Positions 7,713-24,026 of a stretch of DNA of 64,000 nucleotides are shown here, piece by piece. The stretch covers positions 2,294,001 through 2,358,000 of the forward strand of contig NW_004457624.1 of assembly GCF_000203815.1 (NCBI RefSeq), written 5' to 3'. Origin of the DNA: Cavenderia fasciculata (lineage: Eukaryota > Evosea > Eumycetozoa > Acytosteliales > Cavenderiaceae). Both the position numbers and the translations under genes were made by a program. Positions within the stretch are counted from its first letter, which is position 1, and each line of letters begins with the position of its first letter. The notes under the pieces are model-generated. The model had not been told where the DNA came from and searched no databases. It saw only the letters and a list, made by a program, of their open reading frames with translations.

Positions 7713-8685
7713 TTATTTTGCTAATAATTTCATAACATAATCATTAACAACTAAAAGGATACCACCACCAGGACCAAGACGAAGTACCTTTGGAAGGAAA
7801 CCTTTGTAGAGAGCAGCGACACCTTCTTCTCTGGCAACAGTGACCATGGAAGGAATACACCAAGTGTATTTCTTTGGACCGGTACCTTGATTTTGAATTC
7901 TACTCTTGACGACATCGGCAGGAGTATTCAAGACTGTACCCAATGTACCAGCAAGACCACCAGCAACAAAGTTGTTGAGTAGTGTTTGTTTTTGGCTGGT
8001 TGGTGTTGGCAAGGCAGCCTTGAGAGTATGAATAAATCCAAAATAGGCAGAGTTCCAAAGAGCATGTCTCCATAGTGTCGACTCTAAACCCTTGAAAAAG
8101 CCACCCAAACCTTCGCTTTTAGCAATCTTGACAACACAATCCATTGTATTCTTGTATTTACCTGCATTCTCTTTGGCTTGTAATCTAATCTTTACCAATT
8201 CAAATGGTACTACAATAAATGCTTCAGTTACACCTGCACCAATACCAGAACAAATTGCTTGTTTTTGTGTTAATTTACTATCTATAAAAAGTAGAAATAG
8301 AAAATGGATCATTAATATGTGTGTTTGTACAATTATTTCTATAGTTTTTGTACATACTTCCATAAAAAGCTAAAATCTTTTGTTCATAAAACTTGTTTGA
8401 TGCAAACTTGATAGCTCTCTTTGGTGCCTCGACAGCTAATGGAGGAACAATACCACGATACATTCTGAAACCGTCGTGTCTGATCATCTGAACCAAACTA
8501 GTAAACATTGATTGACTTTGACCAACTTGTAATTGTGCTCTAGTCTTTACTACATCCAATGGATACATGACAAGAATCTCTGATACACCTGCTATACCAC
8601 CACTAATAATATTATGCCATAATGGTTGTGACTTTGTTGGTGTTGGTGGTGATCCTGCATTTCCTCCTTCTTGTTTAGTTGCCAT
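7713..8685 (-). CDS. mcfT: Mitochondrial 2-oxodicarboxylate carrier-like protein (SLC25 family)
   Basis: Six-helix inner-membrane exchanger, probably moving 2-oxoadipate/2-oxoglutarate (SLC25A21/ODC type). Exon 1 is 8685-8358 and exon 2 is 8281-7713; an Asn codon is split across the intron, giving 298 residues. Three SLC25 repeats are seen, each with its signature: PLDVVKTR (repeat 1), PFELVKIR (repeat 2) and PADVVKSR (repeat 3). FYRGIVPP/FFKGLEST-type motifs close each repeat. WRHALWNSAYFG and the GPGGGILLVV end resemble the oxodicarboxylate subgroup. The symbol is by analogy with the D. discoideum member. Membership of the carrier family is certain; substrate is inferred. Confidence 0.9.
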
Positions 8686-8933
8686 ATTTAATAATAATAA
8701 TTATATGTTGTTATTGTTGTTGTTGTTTAAATAATAATACAATGTTTCTTTTGTTTGTTTGTTTCTTTCTTTTCTTTGTTTGTTTCAAATATAAATTTTA
8801 TATTATTATCCTTAAATATCTATACTACTAGTGTTTCAAGTGTGTAATAAAATAATAATAATCTTATCTTTTGTTTGATTCTTTTATCAATAACTAAAAC
8901 AAACTCTTTCAGAATGGATGATGATTATATATA

Positions 8934-9133
8934 TTATGAATAACTAAATTTCAAACCCTTTTTGGCATTGGATGATGAAGACGATTGTGCTGAACATGAT
9001 GATTTGAACTTTTATTTTGAATTGAGGAAAGAAAAAAAAACAGACAAAGTAAAAAAAAAGACAAAGAACAGAAAAAAAAGAGGAAAATCAGTAAATTGAG
9101 ATCAACATTATATTTTCTATCTAATAACTTACA
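8934..9133 (-). other. Possible 3' exon downstream of the Fanzor-like gene stop
   Basis: On the minus strand, in the same frame as the Fanzor-like gene and beyond its TAG stop (9186-9184), the sequence stays open for 17 codons. It reaches a consensus GTAAGT donor at 9132. A T-rich intron (9132-9009) ends AAAAG, and 9008-8934 then encodes 24 residues (SSCSAQSSSSSNAKKG...) to TAA, again in frame. This could be the ancestral end of the protein, a spliced 3' UTR, or chance. Confidence 0.3.
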
Positions 9134-9183
9134 GCTGAGGGGGGGACTTTCATATTTATGCAGGAAGGCCCTGTTAAGGTTAA

Positions 9184-12100
9184 CTAGGTCGTGTCTACCC
9201 TCCCAATATGCACGATATCGGCAGGTAAAGGACGATAAATCCATGGCCTGTAATCTGCGGTTTGGTGTAAGATTCCCAATAAGAGAATATTCTTTGCAGC
9301 GCTCGAGTCTCTGTTGAAGAAATGATCACAAACTGGACAATATAGCCATTGCCATTTAGTTTTAAATGGCATTTCTGTCGCATTTGGGTTCTTTGACTTC
9401 CAGAGATCTTTGATCTGACTATCACAAAGAGACTTACCAAAACCATAATCGTGGGTCGAAACAGAGTTGCTTGTAGACTTGTTCCCATCCTTTTGACTAT
9501 TGCTTTGATCTTGGTCCTTACAACGATCATTAGTAGTTGATGACGATTTTGACCTCTTTTTCTTATTTTTGCTAGCATCCCTTTTTTGTTTTTCAAAATT
9601 AAACTTGATGATAGCGTTGATAAGTTGGTCCTTTTTGCTGTTGGTAGCACCACCCTTACTATCCTTGTGAGAACCTCTTTTGTTTTTCCCTTTGGTTGGC
9701 TCTTCTTGTTGATTGTATTTGATAGAGTTTAGATTGCAAAACTCTATCAACTCCTTGACAGTCTTTTTGCTTAAAGAGAAAAGGGATTCCAATAGCATAG
9801 TTGGAGAAGGTGAAGTATTTTCAAGTGATATGAATACTTTTAGAGTTTCATTCATATCATCTGCCAATTGAGACACTTTCAGAGTTGAATCATTCTCTTT
9901 GTCCGCCAATTGAGCCTTGGAGCATTGACAATTGTAATCAGTCAATTTGCAACCATCACATAACTTGGAATCCTTTCCTTGCCAACGAACACCATTGTCT
10001 GAAAACGTGGAGGATATGGGTGCACCAACAACATGGGTCTTTTCAAAAGATTCTGGCAACACATTTTTAACCTTTTGGTGTTTAGCTTTTTCTAGGAACT
10101 TGTTGTTGTTGGTAGAATGAATTTTGGAGGCACATGCATTATGAATCTTGGAAAAAAAAATATTAATGAATGGCCATTTCGAGGGTTGATCTAAAAATTC
10201 AATTATTAAAACACACATACTTTGGAGGTATTAAATTCATTGACAAGACGTGCCTTGTAACCCATATTCAAAAACAGTCTGAGTAGTGTCTTTGATGTAC
10301 AACCAGTTCTACCACCACCTCGGGATCCATGGAAAAAATCAGACCCTCCAATATCTATAAAAAGAAAGAAGATTAATAACAAATAATAATAAATGGTTTG
10401 AAGAAATAAAAAAAACATACAAATCACTATTCTATTTTTCGGGATTGTTGTTGGTGGTACAAAGCTCTTTGCATAGGCATATTGGGCGCGCTTCTTGTCA
10501 ATGTTCCTGTTCTTGTCCATGGTCTGAAACGTATAGGACGTCACTACATGGGAATAAAGACGACATTGATCCCTATGGGTAATTCTTTCATACTCTATTC
10601 GTCTCAATACAGATTCTACATTGAATAAAGTATCTAGGAATTAAAAAAAAAGTTAGTTTATAAATATTAATATTATAATATATAGGTGGTATAGACAATG
10701 CATATTTAAAATAACACTTACCAAAGGTATTATAGGGTGGCAATTCACTTTCAAATTTGGACAGGACCGGGTTCTTTTTGTAGTTTTGTTGTCTTGCCAG
10801 AAGACGGTCAGTGCCCATGAGGTTGTAATAAGATGCCACTGAAACCACTCGAGCACGATTCATAGAGTCTACAATCGTACATTTTGACCTTCCAGGATCA
10901 ATTCCGATATAAAGATAATTGCCACAGTTGTTTTCCCTCATAACTTTCCATTTGCTTCGGCGCCTTCTACACATTCCAGAGTGATAAAAATCTCTCTTTG
11001 CTCTTATATGTTTCTCTTCATCTTTGTAAACGCACTTTTCATTTTTTACAAAAGGTTTAGAGTAGGAGGAGTAGGAGAATGAGTGTGAGGGGAGTGAGGT
11101 ATAGGTCAAGGATGAGGTATCGGTGGAAGAGGGTGGAGTTGAGGTATCGGATGAGGTGGTTGAGGTATCGGTCAAGGATGAGGTATCGGTGGAAGAGGGT
11201 GGAGTTGAGGTATCGGATGAGGATGAAGTGGGTGGGGCATCGGTCAAGGATGGGGAAGAGGGGAGTGAGATATCGGTCAAGGGTGAGGAAGGGGTGGGCA
11301 AGTAGGAGGACGGAGATGGGGACGAGGTGGAAGCGAGACACCTTTGCACGGCTTTTTTGAGGGTTTCCAACGTCATGAAGAACCAATAGTCTGTCAAAGG
11401 GATATTTTTTTCTCTCGCATAGGTCAGTATATCTTTTTTCGAGTTTGATTTCTCTAGATCAAACTGTTCAATTTTTTGTTCTGACCATATTTGAACCCCA
11501 AGGACCGATTTCAACAAAACACATTCCACTTGAAGACGATCTTCTTTGATATTCTCTACGTCGATTTTACGGGATGTGGCCTCTTCAACTAGATGTTCCA
11601 ACGTCCATTGTTTAAGTTTAGGAAAATCTTTTGTTTTGTTACTTAGATTTGGGCGTTTGGTGGTATTTTGATTGGAGGACGAAGGGGAGGATGATGAAGA
11701 GGAGGTGGATGATAAGGACGACGAGGAAGACGAGGCAGATGATGAGGATGACGTGGATGATAAGGACGTGGAGGAGGACGAGGAGGACGGGGACAAGGCA
11801 GACGAGGAAGACGAGGCAGATGATGAAGATGACGAGGCAGATGATGAAGATGACGTGGATGATAAGGACGTGGAGGAGAAGGAGGACGAGGCAGACGAGG
11901 GGGAATTCGATTTAAATGTTTGAACTGGGTCAAATTGAGATACCTTTGGAGCCATTTTGTAGATATCATGAGCAATCAAAATATAGGCTGCTGTTATGTG
12001 CAACGCAAACATGACTGATGGATGCGGGGCGATAGCAATGAGCCTTTTAGGAATTATCCTACTTACATCCACCTCTTTGTCCTCGGTTGTGCCTTTGGCT

Positions 12101-15100
12101 TTATCTAAAATGGTGTGATAAGATTCTTGACTATAGTCAACCATTTCGTAATCCAAAGGATTGGCATTAAAAGCCTCTTTGGCTGCCTTGCAAGGGAATT
12201 GTCCACAAACAATAATGAGCTTGGACGTTGTCATTGAAAAATGCTTCATTAATTCCTTCACCATGATTTCATGTTTGATTTCATTTTCAAATCCGCCAGT
12301 AGACGAGTCGTGGACAAAGGGATATGCATCACGAATTCTAAATTGCATCGAGGGATCGGATGTAGTTTTAATAAGATTGAATAGGTTCCGCATGGAGGGT
12401 GCAATTCCTGACCTGTTACTGTTGAGTGCTATCGAGGTGGTGTTGAGAGCCTCGTGTAGAAAAATCTCCACGTGGGGTGACTCAGGTTGGTCAAATTTGA
12501 CGAGTCGATGATTGATTTCGGCAATTAATGGTACTGGTGGAGGGAATTGATCATCCTTTGAATCAAAGGGTGGCATTTTTTCAAATGCATTCCTTTTTAG
12601 TTGAATATCAACCGAGTACAGATCCATCAGGTCACCACATAAATCCAATCTTTTTTCATGTTCCGATAGAATAGGAATGGTCGCATCACATTGTTCGCAC
12701 ACCATAGGCAAATCTTTAAGTGAGTGGGATGACAAACAATTGGCACAGATAATATCTCTATCCTTGACTTTGGGAATGTTTGGTTTCAACCCAACTTGTT
12801 TTGCCACAAAACAAGCATAGTGGGGATGGTTGTATGAATATGAATGGTTCTTTTCCATTTCTTCTACTTGTTTACATTTCCATGATTCATCATCATCATC
12901 GTCGTCGTCATCGGAATCATCCATGGGTGTGCCATCTTGACCGTTTTTTTGAGAGACCAAACTTTGCTCTGGAAAAGATTCTTCTAGTTTTTGTCTCTTT
13001 TTCAAATGGTATGGCAAGAGACGGCAATTCATGGATATTTGCACATCAGAAACTACTTTTTCATTTGCACCTATATAAAGATTAAAATTAAATATTAGTA
13101 AAATGAATGGGTCGTAAAAGATAATAATGCTTTAAAACAATGACATTTACTTTTTGTTTGGAACCAGATATGGCTGGGAACGTTGGTTGTCACCATCATC
13201 GCCCTTTGATTGATTAGGACCGACATTTTTTGGTTATAAATGTAACCAATATTGTCTCTTTCGTAATCATTAAAGTTGGGGTGAATTGTTTTTGTTGACC
13301 CGTTGAAATCGAATGGGTTGTCTTTTACATACGGTGATTGCAAATAATCGCAGAGGACTGATTTTCCAACAAATCCAATCGTATAGTAACGAAAAAGAAA
13401 CGATTTTTTTGTTGAAGCAAGAGACTTTGGCATCCATTTCCTTGGCCCATTTCTCTTCACCTTTGGGCTGTCATTGAATAGTTTCTTGAGAGTTGCTTTC
13501 AGTGTTGGCAATGAACAGCAGTACCAATCATATTCGATTTTAATAGTGCTAGTAGGTAAAGATAACCATTTTAAAATGCTAACTTGACTGGATTTGCTGT
13601 AGTCAAAGTCTTCTTTAAAATCTATTTGCAAGCGTTTTACCATGTCTTGCCATAAAACCAATTTCAATCTTTTAATATTTTCCTCTTCTTGGACTTGTGT
13701 ATCAATGTTTGGGGATTCGATATCTCTAAGTTCCAATTGTCGATTAAGATCCTCCAATTTAAAATCTTTAAAATCAGGGAATTTTTCTAACTTTATATCC
13801 ACAATCTCACTACGAGTTCTACCTCTTTTTTTTTTTGATGATGAGGATGGAGATGTAGTTGTATCAGACGAAGAGGATGGTGATGTTGTTGTATCAGACG
13901 AAGAGGATGGTGATATTGTTACATCAGACAAAGAGGATGGTGATGTTGTTACATCAGACGAAGAGGATGGTGATATTGTTACATCTGACGATGAAGGAAA
14001 AGAAGCCAAGTGCGAAGCTTTGAGGATCTCAATTTCCTTGTCGAAAAACTTAAATCTATCCAATGGATAGCCACTTTCCAATGGATGACCAATTTCTTTT
14101 TCCAAATTAGGTAATATTTTTGAAATATACCTTAATATTTTGTGTTTGTCGGTCAAACCAAGGGACATATCTATTCCAGAGTTGACGATTATACTGACAA
14201 ACAACTCTATCGAGAATGGGATAAAAGTACTGTTGAATCTATAGATAAAAAAGAGGATTAGTTTTAAAAATATAAAAAAAAAGATATTGGTCAATTGTTT
14301 TATACATACTTTGCTTGTGGTGCAAAGCTATTCAATGCGAAAGGAGTAGTTTTTATCGTCTCCAAATCGGACGTCATGAGGGATTTCAATCCTGTAGGGT
14401 CATATCCTTTTGGAAACTTGTATCCATTTGATTCACAAAAATCCATTAAAGATGGATATTGATCTTTTGTCAACTTTGAAAAATCGATTGAATTGTCCTC
14501 TCTATAGAAAAAAAAATAAGATTACAAAAAAAGCATTTGATTAGTTAATTATAATGAAAATAATAAAAAATAACAAAAGATATAATAATAATAATAGTTA
14601 CGGATTAATTATATTTTCCAAATTTAGCATTTTCAATCTATTCAATTGGAGGGTATTTAACCCACTCCAGGCACTTATTGATGTTGATGATTGGATCAAC
14701 GCTTCCAACTTTGATGAGAGTTCAGATTGTAAATAATCACCAGATATATGTTCTTCAACCTTTAATTTCTTTACATTTTTGCTATCAATCTCTAAATCTG
14801 TGGCCAAATTTGATATTGAATAAACAGTTCCATCAAAATTGATTTCATCAAAGTTTTCAGGCCTTTTGTCACCCAAAAACTGTTTCTTCTTTTTTTTTTC
14901 CTTGGGAATGGCTGGCTCTTGATTTTGCTTGGCCTCTCTTTCCTCTTTTAATTTTGACCTTTTCTTTTCGCATTCCAAATTATGATCTATAATGATAAAT
15001 GTAATAAATGTTAGAGAGGTTTAAAATTAAAAAAAAAAAAGGTTTGACAGGCCTGTCACTGCATAGAGAGAGCTTCTTGCTATCAATGGAGGTATCAAAG

Positions 15101-17009
15101 ATCACTCTAATCTCTGCAATAATTAATACGCGCTGTATTACAATTATACTCTATAAATTCTATCTCTCTCTCCACAATGAGGCAAAAGAGATAGGTGATG
15201 CGTTGATTGGATAATGAAAACAAAAAAGAAATGGTGTAAAAGCAATGATTGTAATGTTTTGCATTATCGATCTGATGGAAAGACTGGGACCAACAATGAG
15301 GCGAGTGGTTAGATGGGTGGTGCATCTCGATAATAAAAACAAATATAATCAAAACAAGAAAGGGTAAAAGAGGAGCAATGGTAGTGATTGATTGCAGTAT
15401 CTGATGGAAAGTTAAGTGGTAAAGAAAGTTTGTCGGATAGGAGAGTGGATCAAACGAACAACAAAAAGGATGCAGAGCGATAAAGAGTGGTAGATTGGTA
15501 CTTGATTTGGATCAAAAAGGATTATATAATTTATGAGTGAACACAAGAGGTCAATGATATGTAAAGATGAACTTGGCCAACAATGAGTAGTTAAAAGGAA
15601 AGAGATGGGTGGTGCATTGATTGGTAAACCAATGAAAACAAAAGATAATCAAAAAGAAATGGTGTAAAAGAGGAGTAATGATAGTGATGTGTGGGTTCTT
15701 ACACTAAAAGTGTAACTATAAACAATACTCGCTGTATTCTATCTATTGATAATGTTGTGTTGAGTGTGAGATGTTATTTAATAGTTTAATATACATTCTC
15801 TAAATTTGGTTTCTGTGAGTTGTTCGAGATGAAAAAAAAAAATGAAAATAAATATTAAAAAAAAAAATCTGATCGACACTCCACAAACTGCCCACCATCC
15901 TCTCAGTAGCGGTCATCGACCCCTTTTGACGTGTATGAGCAAAAGATAAACAAAATGAGAGATAGAGTTACATGAACCGACGCAAGAAGATATTTAAAAA
16001 AAACCTGTGATGGTGTTAATATCAATGACATACCTTTTAATGGTTGAGATGAAAATATTAGTTTGAGAGCTTGGTACCCTTCACCGATATCACCATCATC
16101 TATTTTGGCAAGTATATCCTCCAGAAGATCCGACACCAACTTGGACTCGTGGTGGAATATGTTTCGGTCATCTTGACGGTCTAAAGCACTCTCCACCATC
16201 CTTTTGCAGGTCTCGGCCACCTCGGCCGAGTAACTATTGCAAATGGAGTTGGCAAAGGCGGTTTTATAAGAGTGGCAACAGCCAATTGGATTCAGATCTG
16301 GGTCAAGGAGTGCATATCGGAGGATTTGATATTTTGCAACCATCTCGTCTACCTTGAGTTTGGCAAATGTTCTCGATAGCATTTTGTTGACGATTTTCTC
16401 TTTTGCTTGGACATCTTGTGCAGAATTCTGTAAAGAGTAAACAAAGAATAAAATAAAAATTAATTTATTATTACACATCATAACTGTCACAGACTGTTAT
16501 ACATACATAATCTCTTGGACTATTACTGCTTTTGCGTGTGTCTATGTCCATCACCTTTGAGATGATGGCCTCCACAATTAGAGAATCCCATCGAATCGGC
16601 AAAGTCAACCGATTTTCCATTTTTTCATATAATTCATTTGTTTTGTTCTTTGAAAGAACACTCATGTCGTAATACTTTGGTATTACTTTTTCGAGTTCTT
16701 GTCGGGACAAACTAAACACTAAAAATAGTAAAATACATGAAATCGATCAATTAGTTCATGAACTTATCTGAATGATTCATGTTCAAAAAAAAAAAAAAAG
16801 GTTGATGATATCTTACTGTTATTAAAGTCGTATACAAATATTAAAAAAAATTGGCCTACTAACCTCTTAACAGAGTGATAGTATCTTGCATATTGGCCGA
16901 GATGTGTCACAAACAAGTTTTGTTCGTTATTCCACTTCTTACCCATGAGACGATCGAGAGGGTATTGAGTTGTTCTTGTCTCTGTTGCGGATGGAAGTGG
17001 GCCATTCAT
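9184..17009 (-). CDS. Giant Fanzor-like (eukaryotic TnpB-family) RNA-guided nuclease gene
   Basis: Ten exons: 17009-16864, 16711-16507, 16427-16034, 14986-14602, 14501-14310, 14238-13151, 13070-10722, 10633-10421, 10354-10221 and 10146-9184. All nine joins keep phase, giving about 2,022 codons. The C-terminal third is the nuclease: GIDPGRSK (RuvC-I Asp, about 1528), LVNEFNTSK (RuvC-II Glu, about 1697) and NRDSSAAKNI (RuvC-III Asp, about 1982). Zinc pairs CDGC (about 1765) and CPVC (about 1972) flank a Lys/Ser-rich insert of some 200 residues. The first 1,500 residues are unassigned. They include CANC...CEQC (a possible zinc ribbon), poly-Ser tracts and a Pro/Ser/Thr block. Fanzors use a guide RNA from the element's 3' end to cut DNA. 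The third intron (1,047 nt) is unusually long, so exons 1-3 might be a separate gene. The penultimate acceptor (CCAAG) is not a TAG. Confidence 0.8.
11097..11340 (-). repeat. 66-72-nt coding minisatellite in Fanzor-like gene
   Basis: Imperfect tandem units recur about every 66-72 nt. The landmark GTCAAGG appears on the plus strand at 11105, 11171 and 11243, with a shorter-spaced copy at 11277. The tract is G-rich on the plus strand and codes for a Ser/Thr/Pro block (TDTSS, STPPSS) just upstream of RuvC-I. It is far more GC-rich than its surroundings. Confidence 0.8.
11672..11905 (-). repeat. Poly-Ser coding repeat in Fanzor-like gene
   Basis: A purine-rich (plus-strand) run of GAC/GAG/GAT triplets codes on the minus strand for Ser tracts broken by Ala, Thr, Leu and Pro. 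Blocks of about 30-60 nt recur within it, indicating slippage growth. All reading frames are open here, so overlapping ORFs in the tract carry no meaning. Confidence 0.85.
13849..13990 (-). repeat. 30-nt coding tandem repeat, about five units
   Basis: Five nearly identical 30-nt units encode a ten-residue Ser/Asp/Thr/Pro repeat (SSSSDTTTSP and SSSSDVTISP variants) in exon 6 of the Fanzor-like gene. They are close in sequence, so expansion is probably recent. Confidence 0.85.
15124..15745. repeat. Diverged repeats inside the 1-kb intron of the Fanzor-like gene
   Basis: Three diverged copies of a unit of about 80-110 nt lie at about 15174-15250, 15291-15395 and 15579-15690. They share CAATGAG, GGTGRTGCAT and GAAATGGTGTAAAAG landmarks. 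A second motif, CGCTGTATT, occurs near both edges (about 15130 and 15729). No coding potential is seen. The remainder of the intron (14987-16033) is A-rich. This could be an insertion that grew by duplication or a cryptic intergenic spacer. Confidence 0.55.
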
Positions 17010-17885
17010 GATGACCACTGTGCGATAGTGAACCTCAATTAGAAGCTTCCTATATAAAAAATATATAAAGGTAATACAATATAGCAGAAAGATAATGAAT
17101 TGAAGAAAAGATAGATAAAATGAATAATGATGTGATGAGAAAAAGAACACTTTAAATAGAGAACATTGGAGCTTGATGAATAATATTTTATTTTAAACAA
17201 ATGTTTTCTTGTCTTTGTTGATTATCAACAAAAAGTGAGGGGTGATACATATACAGATGGGGTTGTCCCAATGATATCATAATCGTATGGTGGTTTCTTA
17301 ATACCCGAACTGTGTCATCACCACCGTTTAATGGGGGCATTCATGATGCCTAGGTGAGCCACAGCAGCACGATCATTTATGATTCAACATATGAGTGAGG
17401 GGGATAAGGAGGAGGATAGGGGGTGGTAGTCATGGTTGGATATGATGCCTAGGTGAGCCACAGCACGATCATTCTTTGATGTAACCCGTCAGATTATGGG
17501 CGTGTTGATTCACTATATGAGTGAGGCGGATAAGGAGGGGGATGGGGGTGCGGATTAGGCTCATTATATGAACCAAGATCTAAAATGTAAGAGAAGAGGA
17601 GGAGGGAGAGGGGGGGGTGTATGATACCAAATCAGGGTATGATTCTATTGTTGTTTCTTCTTTTTGATAGGATCCATTTATTAATGAGAGAGAGGGGCTA
17701 TTTGCTGTTGTTGTTTTGAAACAAATGTTCAAACCTCGCAATGTATCAGGTCAGTCACCTATGGCACGCATAAAGATCGCACTATCTCATGAGAAAAAAA
17801 AATTTAAAAAAAAAAAAAAAAAAAGTGTAGAATCAATTGAAACAAACAATTAATTATTTAATTAAATTGATAATATCTTTATTTA
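17010..17885. other. Upstream flank of Fanzor-like gene, no gene seen
   Basis: About 875 bases between the proposed Fanzor-like start and the next gene. It has GC-rich islands atypical of the local spacers, including the duplicated unit listed separately, a G-run near 17610 and long A-runs at about 17790-17823. A TATATAG acceptor-like site at about 17053 leaves room for a further 5' exon, but no convincing one was found. Confidence 0.45.
17341..17560. repeat. Two-copy imperfect direct repeat of about 110 bp
   Basis: GATGCCTAGGTGAGCCACAG occurs at about 17347 and again at about 17442. Each copy is followed by CACGATCATT and, further on, by ATATGAGTGAGG and GATAAGGAG landmarks. The unit is GC-richer than its surroundings and non-coding. 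It lies just outside the 5' end of the Fanzor-like gene. Confidence 0.7.
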
Positions 17886-18389
17886 ATGAATTATCAATAT
17901 TATAGATATATTTTTATCTTTATTTTAAGCATATTAATCATGAGTACAGCAGCCCAAACTATCACTGCATCAGCAGCATCATCAGTATCAGTAGCATTAG
18001 TACCAATAACAACAATCTCTGCATCACCAGCAGCAGCAACAACAACAACAACGACACCTCCAACAGTCTACCAACGATTAATTGGCGACCGTTTTAAACC
18101 AACATTCTCATTAAGACAAGTGCAACGCATTAGAAATAAAACGTCATTCCTGTTGAGAAGACATACAAATGGCGACGAAGTACTACAAGCAGAGGTTCTA
18201 AGAAGTTTGAGCATGTCTAAACATGGAAGAGGTATCAAGACAACTCTCGACCCCAAAGGAGAAAAGATCAACGAAGATGGTACAGTTTTTATGTCACCAA
18301 GAGATTTTAGTTGTATCAACATCATTAGAAAGATGCACAAGGAAGCAAAAGATGGAAAAAAGAATTATTATAATAATTCTACACAATAA
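17886..18389 (+). CDS. Small secreted hypothetical protein
   Basis: Single-exon ORF of 167 residues, not recognised. The first 25 residues form a plausible signal peptide (YIFIFILSILIM core, cleavage near STAAQT). A Thr/Ala/Ser-rich linker follows, then a basic domain of about 105 residues (VYQRLIGDRFKPTFSLRQVQ and onward, many Arg and Lys) with no cysteines, ending in Asn-rich sequence. An alternative start at the internal Met before STAAQT would remove the signal peptide. It has no visible partner; it sits between the Fanzor-like gene's repeat flank and gene-poor DNA. Confidence 0.55.
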   Translation: MNYQYYRYIFIFILSILIMSTAAQTITASAASSVSVALVPITTISASPAAATTTTTTPPTVYQRLIGDRFKPTFSLRQVQRIRNKTSFLLRRHTNGDEVLQAEVLRSLSMSKHGRGIKTTLDPKGEKINEDGTVFMSPRDFSCINIIRKMHKEAKDGKKNYYNNSTQ

Positions 18390-21067
18390 GTTGCATATAA
18401 GAAATTAACTAGTAGTAGTTGTTGATGTATACTAATTCCTTTCTTCAAAAGAATATTATCATCAGTGTCACCTTTTCATACTAGTAAGCAACTAAGAGAT
18501 TTTGGGTTCAAATTTGCAAATGGAGCATTCACAAACGCCAACAAACATCATGATCATCACAGAGTCATAAGAATAAGAACAATACAATTACAATACAATA
18601 CTTAGAGATATAAAAGTCATGATGATGATCATGTTGATGATGATGATGTGAATATTGATCATCAACACAAGTAGTATAGGGTAACAAGTTAAATTAAATC
18701 TCAATCATCATCGTCATTTGATGGATGTCTGTCTCGAATGAATGAATGAATGAATTCAACTTTAGGATGGGTTATGAATTCATAAATCTAGATGTATTTA
18801 TATTTACTACTTGTCTTGTACTGCGCGAGAACACAGTACAGCACAGCACTATCATGTCATGAAGAGAAGTAATTAATTTTGGAGGGAGAATTTTCATCAT
18901 GACACCAACAACAATAACCATCGATCGATTAGATTCATCAAGATATTTTAAACAATCATCAATCAGTCAATCAACAATGGGAATGACGCCTTTAGAGGAC
19001 ATGACGTAGACCAACAATCACTCTGTCTTTATTCAAGGATCCTTTGACAAAGAACCAAAATCTTTTATAAATATATAATATAAATTAAAGTAAGACTATA
19101 CACTACTATGAAATATTATACATCACTAACCATTATTCTATTGTTTAAAGACAATAGAAATAAACCTCTTTTTTATAATTATAGATTACACTTGTGGTTA
19201 TATTATTATTATTATTTAAAAAGACACTACAACTCCTTTTGGTTGGTGGGAGGATGTTCTAGTGTCTGCCAAATGGTCACGCTTCGGTGTGGGAAACTTA
19301 TGAATTCTACCCTCTATCCCTCTTTCCCCCCCCCCCCCCCCTCTATATATATACAATTCTCCCCTATTTTAAATCATTTCAGAATTGGGAGCTGCAAGTA
19401 CATTGTTCATTTGACTCAAAAGGACTACTCTACGGCATAGCCAACGGAGTTCAACTTGTCATTTGGTTCACAATGGGCATTTGCTTGCAGCTCCAGGCTT
19501 GGGTCTGGATACTAATATTTTATTTATTATCTATATATTGTTGGTGTTTTTTTTTAGAATGAGAAACATTGTGAGATTGAGACAAGAGTAATGGTAGCTC
19601 TATTGATTCTACTCATATTTCTTTTCCTCTTTTTATTTATCCCTTACAGCTTTATAGTTCAATATTTAATCAAACAATACATCCATATATGGTACCTATC
19701 CATAAATGATAAAGTTTAAGTATCATGTAGACTTCAACATAGTAGTAGTATATACTACAACCACCACTCAATTACTAATACATATTTTTAACATAGGTCA
19801 TCCTTACTATTTTTCTATAGAACCGATTGATCTTCTTCTTAATCAACCGCTGATCTATTAAAGTTATGTATATATTCATAACATAAATTAATTTCAAAAC
19901 TAACAATTCCAATCTATCAGATATCTGTTTAATGAGACTAGTCAACAAATCGGTTCATACTATAGCTGATAGTCTTGTATTATAGCAACAAAGGTGGTTG
20001 TTTGGTCATCAACTCTACCCACCTGAATTAGAATACAAAGTTAAGTAAATTCATCACAATACAACTATCAAACCCTCAACTAATCATATTCATGCCATAT
20101 TATACTTTAAATATAGAATCAATTGATTAGAGACGAGTTGGTCCATTTTTAAAAACTGTAAAGATATGTATCTTGTAAAATTACTGTCATAAATACTGTT
20201 TACTAATTATTATTTATTATCTTTTAGAATGGATGGTTTTGATAGACCGAATGCGAAATTGTCCATGACCACTAGCCTTGATGGGTTTTAAAAGAGCTAA
20301 TTACAATAATACTAGTATGTACCAAATAAATAACCATGATATCGATATAGATTAAGCTACCATTACTCTTGAGCATTCACAATTGTTTTGAGATTGACCA
20401 TTCCAAATATACTAACCATCTTGTCTAGCGTTGCTGGATGTGGCATGCATTGAACACTGCCGACACCAGTGCATATAATGTTGAAGATTCAAGGCGCCTA
20501 CACCTCTTGCGTTGGCGCTTGTCTTTTTATTTGATTAATCGTGATCCGATCCATGTAGCACGTAGTTTTATATGGTTGCATGTTTACTATATGAGATAGG
20601 CTTTGAAGAATAGCATTTTTTTTATTTGAATAATCTTTGAAACGACGATCCAATATCACCAATAGATACAACTTTTTGTGCTCTTTCTGTTTATATCATT
20701 TGTTTTTCCAAACAATGCTTTCTAGACCTCATCTTAGCCCATGGCTAATGGCGACTTTACGGAAAGTACTTTTTAGAAGGGTGAACCTCTCGCAAATTTT
20801 TTTGTCAACCATTTGATAGATAATGAAAAGATCTATCGATTGGTAAAAGAATAATTAAAAATAAAGAAGACCATAGAGAGAAATAAGTTTTACAAATAAA
20901 TAGATTCTGAGGCGGTACTCCCAACCAAAAATTTTCAAAACCCCCAAAGAAAATAAATATTCATTTTTTTTTATTTTTCCCTTGAAATAATCAAAGGGAT
21001 GGATGGTTTTTTTTTTTATTCAATTCATTTATTATTACATTAATTTTATTTAACTTTTACTCCTTCT
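18390..21067. other. Gene-poor 2.7-kb region
   Basis: No ORF of convincing composition is found. The region is AT-rich with a poly-C run (about 19327-19341), a TATA-like run just after it, and the hairpin listed separately. GC-richer islands at about 20430-20520 and 20730-20810 look like decayed unique sequence; I could not assign them to a gene, an snRNA or a transposon. Confidence 0.5.
19388..19494. ncRNA. Candidate structured RNA (107-nt hairpin), strand unknown
   Basis: An 11-bp perfect terminal stem pairs GGAGCTGCAAG (19388-19398) with CTTGCAGCTCC (19484-19494). Two inner stems stack on it: CATTGT with ACAATG, and TTGACTC with GAGTTCAA (one bulge). Three nested helices in otherwise AT-rich, gene-free DNA are more than I would expect by chance. 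No known RNA family was recognised. Confidence 0.35.
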
Positions 21068-24026
21068 TTAAAACAAATTATTAAACCAATTCTTTTTAGA
21101 TGATTTGTGTTTTTGTACATTTTGTTGTTGTTGTTCTTGTTGTTGTTGAAGATTTAAATTTTGTTGTCTATGTTGAATAGAGAGTTGATTTAATTTTTCA
21201 TTTAATTGATCCAATTTCTTTTCAATGATTGATTTGACTGTGTCTGGTAGCAGGTCATATTCTGGTAGTTGTTGGGGATTTGGCATGGTTGGGATTTTAG
21301 CTTCACACCAAACAACGAGTGGTTTAACATTGAGTTTGATGGCTAGATGATAGATGGAACAAATACTTTCGACATCGATGGATGGACGGATCACAGCGGC
21401 CAGTAGCTCTTTGGCTCTAGGGATTTGATGAATATCGGCGAGGAACAATAAATCAATACATTGATTTGGATCTTCTGGAACACTATTACAATAGAGATAG
21501 ACTAGTAAATGATTAAAGCTACCTGGGTCCACTTCATACATATCGATTTCATTCTTTGTACTCTCTGCAAATTGACCTTGAAACATCATTTGGAAGTATT
21601 GTGATCTAAGTGCCAACATTGCTCTGTAGGATTTAATCTTTTGAATTGAATTGATTGGTTGATAGGATGATTTCTCTGATGATACATTGAATGTAATGTC
21701 ACCATAGTGGTCAAGGTATTCTTGATTGGAGAGATTACCAAAATCCTCTAAAAGACTACTAGTTGGGATAGTTTCCAAAGATTTATAATTTGTAATATTA
21801 CAAATATAAGATAACCTTTCAATCGATAGACTAGTTGCCAAAATACCAAGATCTTGAACATGAGATGCAACGAGTGGAGCATGATCAGTGTATAGAAACT
21901 TTACGAAAAGTTTAATTGGTTCAATCGATGTAAATGATGGGAAATCCATATAAATGATCCCATTCTCGGTAGACGTTGTAATAAAGGTGGTTTGAGTGAG
22001 TGGTATCTTGTTGTTTTGATTTGGACGATCGATTTCCATTTTCAATAGACTATGTAATTTCTTTGATCTCGATGCAACAATGAATCTATGAGCTTTTACA
22101 GTTTCTTGTCTATTTGAATTGACTTGTAGACACAGATCATAATATCTCTCATCTTTTAATAGTTGAGCCATTTCCGAACCAAAGATACTATGACCACTTG
22201 ACAGAGAGACAAGTGAAGCATAATTACCAGCAGCAATCTTGAATACAGTACTTTTGTTTTGAATTTCAACCTTTCTAAAAGTACCAGCATCTCGAAGTAG
22301 CTCTCCATGACCAAGTTGATCCATTTGATTACTACCAAATGTTATGACCTCTCCTGCATCGGTCAACACTACAACATGTTCATATCCAACTTCAATATTA
22401 TTAATTGGATATGGTAGCAATGTCTTTACCAATTGTGGTACATAGGTATAGGTATCATTAAGTGTTGCTGCATAAACTGAAATATAATTATTATTATTAT
22501 TATTGTTTCTACTATTATTGGTACTATTGCTTTTTGTTTCAATAAGGACACCCAATTGACCTTTATCATTATTACCCCAAGTATAGATCATATTTGAAGT
22601 TGTAAGGACTGCATTAAAATTTAAACCTGCACCAATTTTTTTGATTTTAATGTTGGCGTCAAAGATGACACGATTGGGAGGTGATTCTACTGTAGTCAAT
22701 TCTCTACCACATCTACCCTCACGATTTGAACCAAAAGCATAGACATCACCACCATTTGTCAATGTCAATGAATGCCAATTACCACAACTAACTTGTTTGC
22801 ATGCTGGTATAGATTCTACACGACGAGGAGTTGATTGGAAACCCATTGGATTGGAATAACCAAGTTTACCAAACCCTGCCTGTCCCCAACTAAATACTCG
22901 ACCATCTTGACAAACTGCCATCGAGTGATCTTGACCACAAGCAATACCAACAACCTTTACTTGATCTGGGAAATGTGCTACCATTGTTGGCAAAGATACC
23001 ACATCGGTCTTGTTTAATCCTAATCTACCTCCTGCTCCATTGCCCCATGCATAAACACATCCAATTTCATCCAATGCCAATGAATGATCTTTACCACATG
23101 CTATCTGTGTAATCTGTTTATTCTTTAATTCCATAATTTGTGATGGTATTGGACAATCATTTTTTGAATATTGTCCCAACTAAGAAAAATAGAAAATAGA
23201 AAAAAAAAAAAGAAAAAGAATAAATATATAATTAATTTTTTTTTTTATGTTTCTATTCTATTTTACTTACCTTTCCATAACTACATAAACCCCAAGAATA
23301 AATCATACCAGTATCAGTCAACATTAAAGCAAAGTTACCACCAAATTGAACATTTGAAACACCATGTTCTTGATGATGATTAAATAGGACGGTTTGAGGT
23401 GTAGAGACTTTACCAAGTGATAGTTGAGTGGTAAACATTTGACCCCATTGATAGAATGGAGAGATTGGATTTTCAGTGTTTGGACTAGCGTTGTGATGAC
23501 CTTTGATTGAAAAGTTTTTTGGTAGTTCAACGGTCAGTTGACTGGTTGAAATGGCGGCAATGATTTCAGCGGCTTGAAAGTCATCCATCCAAACTGCCAT
23601 ATCTAGAGGTGTAAGGTTACGATGACATTTGTACGATGCATTGGGACCACAAGTAGCAAATAGACGTAGGAATGCATAGTTTTTGTTTAAAACGGCAACA
23701 TGCAATGCTGTCTCTTCTGCTCGATTCAATACATTTTTAAACTCCAAGTATTCAGTCTTGTTTAAATGTTTTAAAGTATTGATTAAAATGTTGTGTTGAT
23801 TTGGTCTAATTGTACCCATTGCTTGACTATGTAGTAATGTTTGTCCATCTGTATCCAATTTTGTCAAATATTGTACAATCTTTTGTTTATCATTTGTTTT
23901 CTCCAAATCATGAGAAATTGAATAAATCGATGCCGAACTCCAAACAAAATTCTCTCTACTTGTCAATTCCTCTATATCTATACGTTCTATTGGTGTATAT
24001 AAATCTTCATGATAAAATGATTCCAT
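21068..24026 (-). CDS. IBTK-like ankyrin/RCC1/double-BTB protein
   Basis: Two exons, 24026-23271 and 23179-21068, join in phase 0 to 955 residues. The domain order is that of the inhibitor of Bruton tyrosine kinase (IBTK) family. Ankyrin repeats (about 55-170) include GQTLLHSQA, ETALHVAV and TPLDMAV. RCC1 repeats (about 240-570) recur as ACGKDHSLAL, YAWGNG, ACGQDHSMAV, FSWG and CGNWHSLTL. A first BTB lies at about 585-700 (DLCLQV, VKAHRFIVASRS) and a second at about 740-860 (ITFNV, RAMLALRSQYFQMMF). IBTK acts as a CUL3 substrate adaptor in animals; the name does not imply a Bruton kinase here. An Asn run interrupts one RCC1 blade and the C-terminus is Gln-rich. Confidence 0.88.

Follow-up and report, generated by a model that had tools for sequence, protein, structure and literature searches.

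Four Fanzor1 families have been assigned to Dictyostelium fasciculatum, three of which are Sola2 elements (Bao and Jurka 2013; PMC3627910). These three families (DFa-1, DFa-2 and DFa-3) have terminal inverted repeats (TIRs) of 12 to 13 bp, 4-bp target-site duplications (TSDs) of the form AWWT, and a common 5' region combined with differing Fanzor regions, and most of the Sola2 transposase has been deleted in DFa-1 and DFa-3. The Fanzor1 of Spizellomyces punctatus, SpuFz1, has 638 residues, belongs to an element with inverted repeats and takes its guide RNA from the element's locus (PMC10432273). Here, we describe a transposon that carries a predicted Fanzor gene of 2,022 codons in a 64,000-nt stretch (the window) of Cavenderia fasciculata (GCF_000203815.1, NW_004457624.1, positions 2,294,001 to 2,358,000, forward strand). 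The locus as a whole is probably best explained as a complete, young copy of a Sola2-like Fanzor transposon that would maintain itself by the cycle proposed below. Copies and relatives were searched for in the window's own genome (30,995,898 bp in 21 contigs, named C1, C2, C4 and so on). Residue numbers are those of the 2,022-residue window protein, and the gene-sense strand of the element is the minus strand, on which the features given below lie unless stated.

The element spans 11,957 bp (9006 to 20962). As seen from the copy comparison, it is flanked by ATTT duplications at 9002 to 9005, on the 3' side of the gene, and at 20963 to 20966, on the 5' side. Its 13-bp TIRs, GAACTTTTATTTT at 9006 to 9018 and, in reverse complement, GAATATTTATTTT at 20950 to 20962, match at 11 of 13 positions; the AT-rich 4-bp TSD is that of Sola2 elements, and the TIR length is that given for the D. 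fasciculatum families. The 3' end was placed from the other copies, since all 12 others listed stop at the same base as window position 9002 and run into unrelated flanks. A C2 copy that is partly deleted and a 5' fragment from C1 (L082) served to locate the 5' end. ATTT stands on both sides of the window and C2 copies, the only two in which both ends were seen, and at the 5' end of the C1 fragment. The C2 copy and locus edges had pointed to ends near 18688 or 17930; these were dropped, as the C2 copy resumes at window position 20097 and reaches the 5' end. The sequence-only reading had given 9184 to 17009, which is the span of the gene; the element itself is larger.

Near-identical copies were observed on several contigs, with long aligned stretches mostly 98 to 99.8% identical in DNA and the 5' part about 97% identical in four copies. 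The window copy and ten others were mapped exon by exon. All ten exons are present in nine of these 11, of which six have an uninterrupted frame (2,015 to 2,022 residues). In the other three ten-exon copies, exon 3 carries a common 4-bp frameshift, to which one of them adds another in exon 7; of the remaining two mapped copies, one lacks exons 1 to 3 and one is internally deleted. Compared with the window, eight copies have an exon 7 of another length, and in seven of these the difference is divisible by three. Among the six intact copies, the ratio of nonsynonymous to synonymous substitution (dN/dS), with low-complexity columns included, ranges from 0.34 to 1.4 in 15 pairs, 11 of which fall below 1. 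The few changes among the intact copies match a recent burst, and dN/dS within this set alone gives no firm evidence of selection. Of the two origins suggested earlier for so long an intact frame, a host-adopted gene or a recently active element, the near-identity of the copies favors the second.

The predicted Fanzor gene runs from 17009 to 9184. Rebuilt from the sequence, it consists of ten exons and nine GT-AG introns, and its single open frame comes to exactly 2,022 codons, as had been proposed. Exon 2 (16507 to 16711) and exon 3 (16034 to 16427, ending at residue 248) were taken from the rebuilt model; exon 1 (16864 to 17009, residues 1 to 48), exon 4 (14602 to 14986), exon 5 (14310 to 14501), exon 6 (13151 to 14238), exon 7 (10722 to 13070, ending at residue 1586), exon 8 (10421 to 10633) and exon 9 (10221 to 10354) from the model together with a diverged relative on C4; and exon 10 (9184 to 10146) from the model and motif reading. 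Intron 3 (14987 to 16033) measures 1,047 bp, the other eight introns 66 to 152 bp. This expanded intron holds imperfect direct repeats (15332 to 15388 and 15631 to 15688), and its form varies among copies. The C4 relative has an intact frame of 1,915 residues in the same ten exons and is 50% identical in amino acids across 1,811 aligned codons. Its introns are 62 to 142 bp long, and eight of the nine (introns 2 to 9) match the window gene in phase. For intron 1 the phase differs in the gene model and the C4 donor is weak, so the 3' boundary of exon 1 is the least sure of all.

The length of intron 3 first raised the suspicion that two genes had been misjoined, in which case exons 1 to 3 would be a shared transposon 5' module and a Fanzor gene of about 1,770 residues would begin at exon 4. 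In line with this, a chimeric element at C3:1825170-1835965 (L077, L041, L081 and L003) carries the 5' end and exons 1 to 3 of the window element at about 99% DNA identity in front of an unrelated long gene that has Fanzor motifs (family B), with the switch from one to the other in intron 3, and the shared frameshift of the three disrupted ten-exon copies falls in exon 3. The C4 relative, however, makes the two-gene model unlikely: exons 3 and 4 are joined there across an ordinary intron of 89 bp, in the same phase and with the same junction, LK|DHNL. Since the relative keeps all ten exons in order, with a short intron 3 and conserved phases, exons 1 to 10 form one predicted gene. The claim that the frame goes beyond chance is likewise borne out by the ten exons of this relative, the six open copies and the length changes in exon 7, mostly by multiples of three.

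Comparison with the C4 relative also allowed constraint to be measured along the protein. Over the aligned codons, nonsynonymous divergence (dN) is 0.425 and synonymous divergence (dS) 1.86. Segments 1 to 248, 249 to 520, 580 to 803 and 860 to 1180 have dN of 0.37 to 0.51, with the proportion of synonymous differences (pS) at 0.72 to 0.78, near saturation. The least conserved segment is residues 1280 to 1390 (31% identity, dN 0.78, pS 0.75), which hold the second copy of a repeated module described below, and an insertion at residues 1736 to 1960 gave dN 0.36 and dS 0.69. Of all segments measured, the two RuvC segments show the strongest conservation, with dN of 0.24 and 0.12 and amino-acid identity of 66% and 79%. 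We conclude from this comparison that the long N-terminus is a genuine part of the protein and has been maintained by selection, though less strongly in some parts. The earlier proposal that the intact frame reflects selection thus holds in part: constraint is seen against the C4 relative, but given the range of dN/dS within its own family, the open frame of the window copy owes at least as much to its youth as to selection.

The assignment of the C-terminus to Fanzor is, as judged from sequence, well supported, mainly because it carries the fingerprint described for these proteins, a RuvC-I DPG together with a glutamate six residues before the zinc ribbon, which is found in less than 1% of TnpB-family proteins (PMC10711439). 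The three RuvC motifs noticed earlier (GIDPGRSK, LVNEFNTSK and NRDSSAAKNI) were located with their acidic residues. The predicted RuvC-I catalytic aspartate, D1528 (10897 to 10899), lies in IGIDPG in all six intact copies and in C4, and the RuvC-II glutamate, E1697 (10236 to 10238), stands six residues before the zinc ribbon as E1697-FNTSKI-H1704xxC1707, again in all six intact copies; the whole fingerprint is present in C4 as well. Exon 10 contains the split zinc ribbon (H1704, C1707 and C1972, C1975), whose second knuckle is followed by the RuvC-III aspartate D1982 (9307 to 9309) in CPVCDHFFNRD. A profile of the zinc/RuvC-III region built from six sequences, searched against Protein Data Bank (PDB) chains, ranked the TnpB-derived LaTranC first (E-value 7.4e-4) and the TnpB-like L79 fifth (0.015), designed zinc fingers taking second (7.9e-4) and fourth place. 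The window protein matches family B at about 5e-6, and family B in turn matches TnpB models of Pfam (4e-5) and NCBIfam (guided TnpB, 2e-4), both under the curated cut-offs. Among viral contigs, 22 pattern matches to relatives of the RuvC I-II region were obtained, none of them confirmed.

These features suggest how the element could maintain itself, its Fanzor being likely to act as the transposon's RNA-guided homing nuclease. The 3' noncoding end (9006 to 9183) is the proposed site of a guide-RNA scaffold; its terminal ~24 bp, TTTCCTCATTTTAAAATAAAAGYTC, are common, with small variation, to five distinct element ends including that of the window. In gene sense, the bases directly after the 3' end are AAAT in the window as well as in the 12 other copies listed. 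The guide RNAs of virus-borne Fanzor1s reach about 15 nt beyond the TSD, and predictions place both TIR and TSD within the scaffold (PMC10711439); the conserved 3' end followed by AAAT fits that arrangement. A Sola2-type transposase, supplied from elsewhere, would move the element, and transcripts of its 3' end that continue past the inverted repeat and AAAT and take in about 15 nt of flanking DNA would serve as guide RNA. The Fanzor would then cut an empty site, recognized as the guide sequence preceded by AAAT, and the element would be restored by repair from a filled copy. The N-terminal modules described below may add DNA binding or repair-related functions. Two short copies, L018 (C2:1003979-1007923) and L019 (C10:242025-245414), keep the 3' end and have lost most of the protein gene; L018 retains both ends, with a masked gap within. 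They are possible guide-RNA-only "ghost" loci. Diverged Fanzor element ends or relics with the terminal ~24 bp were also seen on C5 (L085), C18 (L086, C18:1308100) and C3 (L088, C3:55700).

Several observations weigh against this reading. No transposase was recognized in the element, where open reading frames outside those overlapping the Fanzor gene reach at most 171 residues (no Sola2 reference was compared). AAAT follows the 3' end in four of the five distinct element ends, the diverged C18:1308k having ATTT instead; an Rfam search for a guide-RNA fold returned no family at gathering score, and four aligned 3' ends agree well only over the last ~24 bp, with no coherent shared RNA fold. In the zinc ribbon, of the form HxxC/CxxC, the first cysteine is replaced by histidine, also in C4, and 264 residues separate the two knuckles, as against the 12 to 18 permitted by the published search pattern (PMC10711439). 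Against profiles, the window protein itself matches PF07282 below the curated cut-off, at E-value 0.014 and 16.0 bits against 26.3 (exon 10 alone, 0.095). NCBIfam models did not match the window protein, no PDB chain was found with a RuvC I-II profile, and no WED or REC region turned up in Pfam or PDB searches, which were not aimed at them.

The altered zinc ribbon, together with the within-family dN/dS and the three frameshifted copies, would also suit a passenger frame, that is, a Fanzor that no longer cuts in an element merely carried by a transposase from elsewhere. We regard this as improbable, since the three acidic residues are kept in all six intact copies and in C4 and the RuvC segments are the most strongly conserved. 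A domesticated host gene with a Fanzor domain serving a cellular function, to which the long intact frame and the constrained N-terminal segments might point, is scarcely credible, because the gene lies inside a transposon with inverted repeats and ATTT duplications that has nine ten-exon copies in unrelated flanks.

The N-terminal ~1,500 residues, regarded in the sequence-only reading as unexplained and perhaps a fusion, are not blank. They contain a module of about 105 residues twice (residues ~590 to 694, 13479 to 13793, and ~1282 to 1381, 11338 to 11637), with a zinc ribbon and an alpha/beta domain between the copies. The module looks SAP-like by eye, which we take as no more than an assumption, as no search supports that look. 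The zinc-ribbon-like CxxC...CxxC (C912, C915, C928 and C931; 12688 to 12747) has all four cysteines invariant between the window and C4. The alpha/beta domain (residues ~985 to 1181; 11938 to 12528) is 56 to 60% identical in C4 and is possibly uracil-DNA-glycosylase-like. It resembles that superfamily (SMUG1, UdgX, TDG and UNG) in its alternating beta/alpha order, and its APHPS recalls the HPS loop of UNG, APHPS being present in Escherichia coli UNG too; unlike UNG, it lacks the GQDPYH motif. Sequence and profile searches against the superfamily gave no significant match. AlphaFold2 models and fold searches were mixed: SMUG1 was the top Foldseek match for one of two models, whereas the better model favors other alpha/beta folds. 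Among viral contigs, 48 pattern matches to relatives of the domain were obtained, none confirmed. A third relative of the domain is represented by a fragment (VEIWVNEPLNTSSIAMNEDRS), apparently truncated, at C1:1677300-1679000 (L084). A tentative and rather doubtful suggestion is that a uracil-DNA-glycosylase-fold domain, with one module copy on either side, is built into this giant Fanzor; base recognition or base excision would then be naturally fused to a programmable nuclease, and selection would have maintained the fusion in a lineage of eukaryotic transposons.

A second, divergent gene encodes 149 residues near the 5' end of the element (17940 to 18389, plus strand). It is 60% conserved in C4 (86 of 144 residues identical) and has 25 matched stretches genome-wide, with matches near several family B copies; its Pfam matches are solely below cut-off. 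It is perhaps a transposase remnant or an accessory gene. Both neighbors of the element are minus-strand genes, named here by reading their translations: a mitochondrial-carrier-like gene (7713 to 8700), with the element ~0.3 kb upstream of it, and an RCC1/BTB-like gene (21068 to 23179), with the element ~0.1 kb downstream.

The protein is far longer than usual for its kind, as the sequence-only reading had remarked: it has 2,022 residues, and a 2023 survey describes Fanzor1s of up to about 800 (PMC10711439). In addition, comparative evidence indicates that the additional 1,500 residues belong to the spliced product and are under constraint. This raises the question of how such an extension benefits a transposon nuclease, whether in targeting, in handling host repair or in the control of its activity. 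The six intact copies, the predicted AAAT-adjacent target and the diverged intact relative offer a system in which this can be tested. Outside subscription papers, literature searches for Fanzor with uracil-DNA glycosylase or domain fusion returned, by title, only general editing reviews, and those for giant or large size returned none.

Overall, the kind of element is already known, because the window element fits the Sola2-Fanzor1 chimeras of D. fasciculatum: it resembles DFa-1, DFa-2 and DFa-3 in TIR length, in its 4-bp AT-rich TSD and in a 5' region common to elements with differing Fanzor regions. In the passages of that report considered here, no Fanzor length is given for these families, and neither the giant size nor the N-terminal architecture described above appears (PMC3627910). 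The window protein resembles SpuFz1 in its RuvC acidic residues and its inverted-repeat element, but its RuvC-I starts only after about 1,500 residues. With the TnpB of IS605/IS607 it shares the zinc/RuvC-III motif CxxC...NRDxxAAxN, and it differs in its DPG, its alternative glutamate, its introns and its DNA-transposon ends.

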